DNA from: Trematomus loennbergii
Lineage: Eukaryota; Chordata; Actinopteri; Perciformes; Nototheniidae
NCBI GenBank assembly: GCA_012861695.1
Contig: JAAOOA010000060.1
Span: 7,838,454 to 7,902,453 of the forward strand
Length of the DNA stretch: 64,000 nt
Direction of reading: 5' to 3'
The notes below the pieces were generated by a model. That model was not told the DNA's origin, made no database searches, and saw nothing but the letters and a program-made list of their open reading frames with translations. The translations under genes and the position numbers were made by a program. This document shows positions 36,058-43,149 of the stretch, one piece after another. How positions within the stretch are numbered: position 1 is the first letter of the stretch; each line of letters starts with the position of its first letter.

Positions 36058-36610
36058 ACTCGGTATCCAACCGAGGTACCAGAAAACGTCATGGTTGGTA
36101 AACACGTCTCAATATAACTTAAGGTATATCAAGTTAATGTTGAAAACATTAACTGAAGGAATGTAAAAACATGTATTCACAGGTAGACAGCAGTGTTGAG
36201 GATGTTGTGGCTGAAGAAAAGGTTTCCCAGGACATTAAAAACCTTGAGGAAATCAAGGAAATTCTCCATGGCAATATTGCCAAGCAGGAAAAAAGCACCA
36301 GGGAGCGCTTGAGACAGGGCATTCCTAAATGTCACTTCAGAGTAGGTGACCAGGTGTGGCGGAGCCAACAGAGAAAAGGTGGCAAGCTTGAGGCAAACTT
36401 CCTTGGCCCTTTCAAAATTACAGCACTAGAGGGGAAAAGTGCTGATCTGCAGTCGGATGATGGTAAAGTTTTAAAAGAAATCAATGTGGATCACTTAAAA
36501 ATATCCAAAGCAGAGCTGCCCCGAATACCTCACCAAATAAAAAAAAACAGCAACAATAGCAGTATCACCCTCCACATCACCAGCCTACATGGAAGGTCCA
36601 TCAGCGCAGC

Positions 36611-36830
36611 CTCACCTGCTGCCCCATCAGCGCCAGCCTCACCTGCTACCCTATCAGCTCCATCAGCGCCAGCCTCACCTGCTACCCTATCAGCTCCATC
36701 AGCGCCAGCCTCACCTGCTACCCTATCAGCTCCATCAGCGCCAGCCTCACCTGCTGCCCCATCAGCGCCAGCCTCACCTGCTGCCCCGTCAGCGCCAGCC
36801 TCACCTGCTGCCCCATCAGCTCCAGTTTCA
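36611..36830 (+). repeat. In-frame coding minisatellite (Ser-Ala-Pro-rich)
   Basis: Tandem units of 36 bp (CCTCACCTGCTACCCTATCA plus CAGCTCCATCAGCGCC) and 27 bp (CCTCACCTGCTGCCCCATCA plus GCGCCAG). Each encodes SAPASPA-type peptide in the frame of the upstream integrase-like segment. It forms the linker between that module and the Ulp1 protease. Confidence 0.85.
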
Positions 36831-38285
36831 CCTGCATTACTCTATTTTTGCAGATGTGCAGGAGGCATGGGCTGGGAAGGATGTACACGTCCTCCTTTCA
36901 AAAATAGGGCCATACAAACAGTTTTTTTGGGATATTACAAACACTGGTCCAAACAAGGAGCTGGAGAGTGAGGTATTGCTTTGTCACATTATAATTTATA
37001 TTTTTATATTTTATATAATTCCGTTCCCTAATGGTCAATATCGTTTTTAATGAAAGTCACAAAACATTGTATTACAGTTTTATTGACTTAAATCATAAAA
37101 GGAAATTCAGTGACGTTACAACAATGTAGTTGATAGTATTACAGTAAACATGCCTCTTTTTAATACATTGTGATAATTTTTCTCATAGGTGATCAATGCC
37201 TACCTTACACTCATTGTAAGAAGATTTAACCAGTGCAATGGCGGTCAAGCAGCTGTTATTGACAGCTACACTATGACCGCCATCTGGAAACAGACATTTG
37301 GAAGAATGATTGGTATGTACATGATTGGAATGACTTCGCATTTTGTAAATGTTGCAAATGTGCGTTTTTCAACAGGAATGTAATACTTTTGCAACTACTC
37401 TCAGGTTGATCCAATGGCACACACAGTCATCATGGGAATTGTGAATGAGAACCATCACTGGATGTTGGTGGTGAGAATAGGAGCATATTTTAAGCTCCAA
37501 TCTGTATCTATAGTGCTGTATACAACCTATATAATTAGCAAATTTGCAAGATAACCTGGCCACACGCTGTCACTTATTATTAATAACATCTAAACAATAC
37601 CCTACATCGTACCTGCCTAATGTATGGTTCCTGCCTAATGCATGTTGTGTTTCCATGTGAATAATAAAAGGTAATGTACCCCCATGAGAAGAAAACCCTC
37701 TTCTTGGATCCACTTGGAGAAAGTAAAGGCAAGATGAAGGTGTGCCTGCAGTCTACAAGGTACATTTAATACAGTGTACTAGTTCCGGTGTTGTATGAGT
37801 TTTTTGACAATGATGTGCTGCATCTTGACACATGTATCTACGTAGAGCCTTTATGAGGATGAAAGGCTGCAAGGTGTCAAGGTGGACATGCAGCACCCTC
37901 CCCCATAATCGCCAACAAGATGGCACATCCTGTGGTGTCCTGGCCTTAAAAGTGAGTGTGAAATGCATTTACCCAAACATTACTCTCAAACTCAAATTCA
38001 GTAGCAATTAGACTGAATATCTTGACTTGCTTTTATACATCTTCATCAAAGATGTATTGAATTGTGTAAAACTACACATATACAACATGTTGTTCTTTAA
38101 ATCTGTTGGGTAATTTGTCTGTATTCGATTTGAGGGTAAAATCATAGACCATGCAGTCCATTATATACTAATCAGAGTTCTCTTCAGTTTGCAGAGAACA
38201 TTTTACTGGGGGAGGAAATTGAGTTTGAAACCTCACAGAAGGCAGCTGAGGCTGGACATTGCTACTTCTCTCCTCAGAGAATCTG

Positions 38286-42100: not shown

Positions 42101-42375
42101 GTTGAAACAACTCAAACATTCATCTGCTACTCAGTAGTATATATCTAATATCTAATATATATCATTCCAATAACTTGTATATAGACTCGTACTGCACTAT
42201 TCCACATCATCACTTTATTTTATAACTATTTTTCTTTTTGTATTGCTCTTCTTATTGTTATTATTATGTTGCATTGTTGGAGAAGCCTGTGACATAAGAT
42301 TTTCAACTACATAATTACTCTGTAGCTATGTCAGATTGACAATAAAGAACCTTGAACCTTGAACCTTGAACAACA
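39180..42375 (+). mobile_element. Nearly full-length L2-type LINE
   Basis: In order: a 5' region; an AP-endonuclease segment (VLILTETWLNP, later MAGDFNTAN and GKSDHL); an RT domain (NPHKAPGPDGIPG, LFIDYSSAFNTI, GAPQGCVLSPLLYSLF, catalytic FADD); and a C-terminal region (SFRFLGVHI, TAWYGSCTDLDRKALQRVV). The 3' end is an AATAAAG plus repeated GAACCTT tail. At about 3.2 kb it is close to full length, but the frame breaks in the endonuclease (about 39690-39960), near 40920 and near 41375-41400, so it is not active as given. It lies in an intron of the Ulp1/PHD locus, same strand. Confidence 0.88.
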
Positions 42376-43149
42376 AAAGAACCATGAGAACCAAACTTAA
42401 ATTGATGTGTACAGTGCGAAAGAAGTTTTGGATGTTTTGGAGGGTAAGGAGAGTGTGAAAGAAGGAGCAGATGGCTCCTCTGTGCTCAGATTTAATAATG
42501 TAGAAAATCTATGTGTTTGTGTGTGTTTTGCCTTTTCTTCACACAAAATAATAAAAGACCACCCTGCACAAAAATGTGTCCTTATATAATTGACCTTTTC
42601 GTCAAAAATTTGAATAGGTCAACTTGACCCCAAATCTGCAATGTGGTTTATCTGAAAATATTGATTACTTTTTGTCTCAACAGATGATCTAAGCAGGCTT
42701 ACTGTGGGATGGAGGAGCAGGATGGAGAACATTGGGTAATTTCCTATCGCACATTGCAAATAAACAAATGAGCAGAAATATGTTTCCAGACTTTATCAAC
42801 ATAACATTTGCGTTGGTAATTGCTACTATATTTGGCATCTTCAGCATTAACTGATAAAGGATTAATGTTGTGCTTGTTTTTCCATACATTTTTGTTGAAA
42901 ATGTATTTCTTTCTCATAACACAACATTTATGTTTTTCAAAGATTTCGATAATTTAAGGAATGGTTAGAATGTTAGTGGTAAATACATTTGAGATATTCT
43001 ATTATCATGAAAACCCCATAATGCATACCTTAACAAGTATTTATTGTTTTCTCAGATTTGCTGTGACATTTGTCGGCGGTGGTACCACCACCAATGTGTA
43101 CAAAGGCCTCCAGTGGATCAACAGTATTTGTGCCCTGGATGCACATAAT

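Follow-up and report, generated by a model that had tools for sequence, protein, structure and literature searches.

Ulp1 protease and PHD finger exons in Trematomus loennbergii almost certainly belong to a dead, truncated Ginger1 transposon

Results

Ulp1 and PHD exons at the locus

At positions 36183..43148 of the 64,000-nt stretch of Trematomus loennbergii DNA analysed here (hereafter the window), an integrase-type tail exon is followed by a tandem Pro/Ala/Ser linker that can be read directly in the translation, six exons of a Ulp1-type protease and two exons of a PHD finger (Table 1; c127 is a related copy elsewhere in the genome, and C921 is a contig that is collinear with the window).

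Table 1. Features along the locus, in window coordinates
Feature	Positions	Strand	Evidence and remarks
BED-zinc-finger fragment	35562..36058	+	zf-BED E=6.4e-10, ORF 35562-35954; abuts 5' break of the Ginger1 copy
Last integrase-core exon, end remnant (~13 residues)	36059..36095	+	blastn match to c127 begins at 36059
GPY/F-type integrase tail exon (to ~36590), then tandem Pro/Ala/Ser linker (36591-36838)	36183..36838	+	translation
Deletion junction, from linker to ~20 nt before the Ulp1 acceptor	36833..36853	+	c127 positions 9258 and 10032 meet here
Ulp1 exon 1	36854..36972	+	
Ulp1 exon 2	37189..37312	+	+1 shift at end relative to nine other copies
Ulp1 exon 3	37405..37470	+	catalytic His in ENHHWML
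Ulp1 exon 4	37671..37759	+	catalytic Asp in LFLDPLG
Ulp1 exon 5	37846..37951	+	Gln and catalytic Cys in QQDGTSCG
Ulp1 exon 6	38188..38285	+	8-nt deletion (common to C921), leading to a stop at the next junction
384-bp intron stretch	38485..38868	.	absent in c127 (continuous at 11700/11701)
LINE-like insertion in the last-but-one intron	39172..42366	+	RVT_1 E=1.5e-19; c127 continuous at 12007
PHD exon 1	42684..42735	+	7-nt deletion; one Cys of the first C-x2-C pair removed
PHD exon 2, to stop codon	43056..43148	+	
Short inverted match to inner edge of c127 5' terminal repeat	43116..43224	-	80.7% to c127 5124-5216

The preliminary description had proposed a spliced gene with six junctions (37312/37405, 37470/37671, 37759/37846, 37951/38188, 38285/42684 and 42735/43056), all of which have GT-AG borders; the border 36972/37189, upstream of these six, was added in this analysis. 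In another copy from the same genome (C86, locus L013), eight exons with homologous borders, the six junctions included, splice into an open 252-aa Ulp1+PHD frame, and the exon model is therefore right for the family. As a description of the window copy itself the proposal holds only in part: its borders and exon model are those of the family, but its exons do not form a single reading frame.

A Pfam search of the window exons, read piecewise with X inserted at two frame breaks, recovered Peptidase_C48 (E=1.1e-7) and, across the intron, PHD (E=5e-7, with the first cysteine pair damaged), so that remnants of both domains are kept, as had been claimed. The catalytic His (ENHHW), Asp (FLDP) and Gln plus Cys (QQDGTSCG) are all readable. 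The nearest solved structures in the PDB are SENP2 (1.5e-6) and SENP1 for the protease part and an Alfin-like PHD (8.7e-10) for the PHD part; given these structures and the Pfam matches, the Ulp1 and PHD assignments stand. The open copy matches Peptidase_C48 at 9.9e-9 and PHD at 8.9e-4, the latter below the Pfam cut-off (19.7 vs 24 bits). The GPY/F assignment of the integrase tail is softer: NFLGPFKI is recognisable by eye, the profile match is weak (SH3_Tf2-1, E=0.026) and no family scores above cut-off, and the call therefore rests mainly on the position of the exon and on inspection by eye.

The window copy is truncated and its frame is broken

Homology to other copies starts abruptly at 36059, which sets the left limit of the element. 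When the integrase pieces of the family were compared with the window by tblastn, residues 81-93 of the last piece matched 36058-36096 (E=0.004), and the sole further match in the window was a 7-residue chance match elsewhere, in agreement with the earlier statement that the DDE core is missing from the locus. At the other end, the remaining 3' terminal repeat was not found at the window copy, and the terminal motif is absent from the window at up to three mismatches.

Several further observations concern the surroundings of the locus. A second BED-zinc-finger fragment lies at 33769-34122 on the minus strand (zf-BED, 1e-4); on our reading of the sequence, this fragment and the one at 35562-35954 are hAT-like. 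The stretch 34031-34269 also occurs, inverted, within the Ginger1 copy c127 (97.5% identity). Further upstream, a Pro/Ser-rich open frame of 307 aa (8456-9379, plus strand) may belong to an ordinary host gene as one of its exons.

Decay, one of the two fates earlier envisaged for the locus, is evident from several inactivating lesions in the window exons. The linker frame reads on to a stop at 36969-36971; eight other copies have extra sequence, presumably an intron, between the linker and the Ulp1 acceptor, and this has been deleted in the window. Relative to nine copies, the window is shifted by +1 at the junction 37312/37405, which is out of frame and runs into a stop. Exon 38188-38285 is missing 8 nt that nine copies have, a stop being met at the 38285/42684 junction, and the 7 nt missing from exon 42684-42735, which ten copies have, take one Cys of the first PHD pair with them. 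The LINE-like insertion makes up ~3.2 kb of the 4.4-kb 'intron' 38285/42684. The inserted element (39172-42366) has interrupted reverse transcriptase frames and ends in TTGAACC repeats.

The 384-bp stretch at 38485-38868 was considered as an insertion private to the window. This was ruled out, since the stretch is also present in C921 and, at 83-84% identity, in both C66 copies (c66 and c66b); it is therefore common to part of the family.

The contig C921 runs collinear with the window, at 97.5-99.1% identity over 26.2-34.9 and 37.4-53.5 kb, with further matches at 59.1-62.1 kb (99.2%) and 13.3-16.8 kb (94.8-98.9%), and represents either an allelic haplotig or a duplication of recent date. This contig lacks 34,878-37,353 (~2.5 kb), and with it the GPY/F exon, the linker and the first two Ulp1 exons; ~0.5 kb of other sequence stands in their place. 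The 8-nt deletion is common to C921 and the window, the 7-nt deletion is absent from C921, and C921 has a 1-nt deletion of its own in the exon 37846-37951. Since this allele or duplicate has lost the first half of the locus and carries its own lesion, decay is going on.

We saw no sign of coding constraint in a plain comparison of exon with intron divergence, as distinct from a dN/dS test. Over 36854-38484, the window differs from four copies at 3.7-3.8% of exon sites vs 2.3-2.5% of intron sites, a difference that is not significant in the two cases tested (p=0.12 and 0.18), and exon and intron values are about equal against the partial copies c66 (3.0/3.2%), c1 (2.4/2.0%) and C921 (0.3/0.4%).

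Relatives elsewhere in the genome have Ginger1 ends and an integrase

Searching the 1.2-Gb T. loennbergii genome with 36183-38290 returned at least 91 matching pieces. Nine other places, all on other contigs, are ~95% identical over most of the Ulp1 part, and more are partial. The preliminary description had named many dispersed, non-syntenic copies with neutral substitution patterns and no spliced transcripts as the mark of ordinary transposon debris; the copies on other contigs, the exon and intron divergence, the lesions and the contig C921 agree with this. Against c127, the stretch 36183..36838 is 88.9% identical.

These copies bear on the suggestion that the locus is a Ginger1-derived host gene that keeps its protease and PHD finger as a SUMO or chromatin regulator. 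Its domain remnants are recognisable, and such derivation has precedents in GIN1 and Gin-2, host genes from Ginger1 transposases that form orthologous sets (PMC2836005), and in Imagin, another host gene derived from Ginger1 (PMC12863088). Yet the reading frame is interrupted at three places in the exons, what is presumed to be the intron after the linker is lost, the exons are no better kept than the introns, the collinear contig does without the first half, and near-identical copies are dispersed over the genome. We consider co-option highly unlikely, and this part of the earlier proposal is not upheld.

Fifteen other copies were fetched for comparison. The four obtained with both ends are 12,134, 12,146, 12,285 and 13,183 bp long and terminate in inverted repeats beginning TGTTGTG(C/T)CAAATTATG, which fits the TGTNR of Ginger1. 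Three of these four have the 4-bp flank CCGG on both sides, and the fourth has CCGG/CCGC; CCGG also adjoins the available end in five further copies fetched with one end. The inverted repeats reach ~2.0 kb, with 97.5% identity in one copy; another copy that was tested has a 168-bp tandem array inside them.

Exact matches to the terminal 18-mer number 320 genome-wide (171+149), and the reversed control gave 0. From the matches listed we picked 12 short copies with two ends facing each other at 0.4-1.7 kb; they measure 445-1669 bp, and their duplications are perfect in 10 (nine CCGG, one ACGG) and mismatched in two. A non-autonomous Ginger1 derivative of 445-448 bp is found at L040-L047. The eight copies of this length, picked for size, are 96.6-99.6% identical to one another (mean 98.3%, 28 pairs), and this high identity suggests recent mobilisation.

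Relatives of the window copy encode an H2C2 zinc finger, a DDE core, a GPY/F-like exon, the Pro/Ala/Ser linker, Ulp1 and PHD. In c127, Pfam finds Integrase_H2C2 (1.4e-13), rve (5.6e-13) and rve_3 (3.8e-6) upstream, and tblastn locates all three integrase pieces in 12 of the 15 other copies; none was recovered from the fetched sequence of C921, c66b and c973. An arrangement QYP...Y...LYY, which may correspond to the YPYY motif of Ginger1 upstream of the zinc finger, was noted by eye in translated c127. The Ginger ancestry proposed earlier is borne out by relatives with TGTTGTG ends, CCGG flanks and an integrase. Similar copies are not all self-sufficient, since the first Ulp1 exon is broken by a +1 shift in six of them (c127, c16b, c135, c26, c16a and c2769).

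Two other mobile elements could supply an integrase. Polintons carry a cysteine protease, and a Polinton/Maverick remnant would combine an integrase with an adenain-like cysteine protease. The integrase of Polintons is Gypsy-like (PMC2836005). The relatives of the window copy have 4-bp CCGG duplications and TGTTGTG ends instead, a single spliced frame contains the Ulp1 and PHD exons, and the ORFs of at least 130 aa in c127, a list blind to shorter or spliced genes, are three linker frames, one partly low-complexity and one outside the element. We regard a Polinton origin as extremely improbable. A fragment of a Gypsy LTR retrotransposon would explain the similarity of the integrase to Gypsy, and among the matches listed gag-pol fusion or Gypsy integrase-like is the name given to several fish homologues; against it, the element ends are inverted and not direct repeats, no reverse-transcriptase-like frame was noticed by eye in the ORF lists of c127, and the Ulp1-PHD tail is spliced, leaving Gypsy a negligible chance.

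Co-option and an origin from a Polinton or Gypsy element were rejected on these grounds.

Homologues in other fish

A search with the Ulp1+PHD protein returned 74 proteins, 72 of which carry a species name; by hand count these represent 52 species, all of them presumably teleosts. The seven best, at 89% identity or more, come from Gymnodraco, Dissostichus, Pogonophryne and Champsocephalus, which we take to be Antarctic notothenioids. Eleven of the 74 are named sentrin-specific protease. The integrase query returned 880 proteins. Among the best 120 of these, the lower ranks include many unnamed metagenome proteins (30-39% identity), so integrase similarity alone cannot separate Ginger1 from Gypsy.

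Several predicted fish proteins join rve, Ulp1 and PHD (for example P0012, Hoplias; P0081, Metynnis; P0109, Danio rerio), and rve is joined to Ulp1 in P0094 and in the unnamed P0083. These fusions point to an architecture that, judged from sequence, is a feature of a teleost transposase, with nothing in it peculiar to the window locus.

Discussion

In this study we have examined a locus at which a SUMO-protease-like and a PHD-type domain lie side by side in a fish genome. We are very confident that 36183..43148 derives from a cut-and-paste transposon of the Ginger1 group with several exons, and that this copy is truncated and dead. It amounts to ordinary transposon debris and is no new host gene. 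The tempting reading as a new SUMO or chromatin gene is thereby removed.

In an intact element, the integrase part would cut and join the element ends at CCGG. The Ulp1 part probably aids transposition, through desumoylation or deubiquitination of partners, and the PHD part probably does so through chromatin binding. The window copy has lost its integrase core, terminal repeats and reading frame and acquired a LINE, and it is most likely functionless. Some of its Ulp1 exons are intact, exon 3 and its borders matching nine other copies letter for letter, so the copy may still yield a short or non-coding spliced product.

A broader proposal is that teleosts harbour a widespread Ginger1 lineage that has moved recently. 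Its body would be unusually large (~12 kb), its terminal repeats would measure ~2 kb and contain a subterminal tandem array, and its tail of SUMO-protease and PHD domains would participate in transposition. Part of what is annotated in fish as 'SENP2-like' or 'Gypsy integrase-like' would then be this same transposon; in our judgement the proposal could equally well prove right or wrong. Public gene models called 'sentrin-specific protease-like' or 'Gypsy retrotransposon integrase-like' have homologous Ulp1-PHD and integrase parts, and a transposon family may be mislabelled as sentrin-specific protease in fish annotation. Taken together, the related long elements and the short derivatives that resemble them offer a vertebrate system for the role of protease and PHD cargo in an integrase-type DNA transposon.

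In the literature that we searched on Ginger together with fish or notothenioids, we found no description of a teleost Ginger1 with Ulp1-PHD, nor was the family of the window copy found described there. Teleost Ginger1 is in print as a repeat class, since the grayling genome report gives Ginger1 base counts in a repeat table (PMC6505133). The vertebrate Ginger1 relics of alligator, turtle, coelacanth and frog are old protein fossils, and the accessible portion of that source has no teleost Ulp1-PHD element among them (PMC9004415). Unlike GIN1 and Gin-2, the window locus has many dispersed counterparts, and it is broken.

The combination of Ulp1 and PHD in a Ginger1 element is already known from hydra, and among the papers listed for this combination only Bao et al. 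2010 seemed directly relevant. According to these authors (PMC2836005), Ginger1 elements have TGTNR ends and 4-bp CCGG or CCGT/ACGG duplications, carry a C-terminal OTU or Ulp1 domain and, in one published family, a PHD finger, and have terminal inverted repeats of ~40-270 bp in elements of 2.6-7 kb; the same authors suggest a role in transposition for the protease. The fish copies exceed this published range in both body and inverted repeats. The range reflects the families then known and no mechanism, and the fish copies are therefore still filed as Ginger1. One of their closest described counterparts, Ginger1-9_HM of Hydra, likewise joins a Gypsy-like integrase to C-terminal Ulp1 and PHD domains and has introns (PMC2836005). 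The hydra element is 3,758 bp long, its inverted repeats measure 120 bp and it has two introns; in the fish copies the length is 12-13 kb, the repeats extend to ~2 kb and introns are more numerous, and the copy tested has a 168-bp tandem array.
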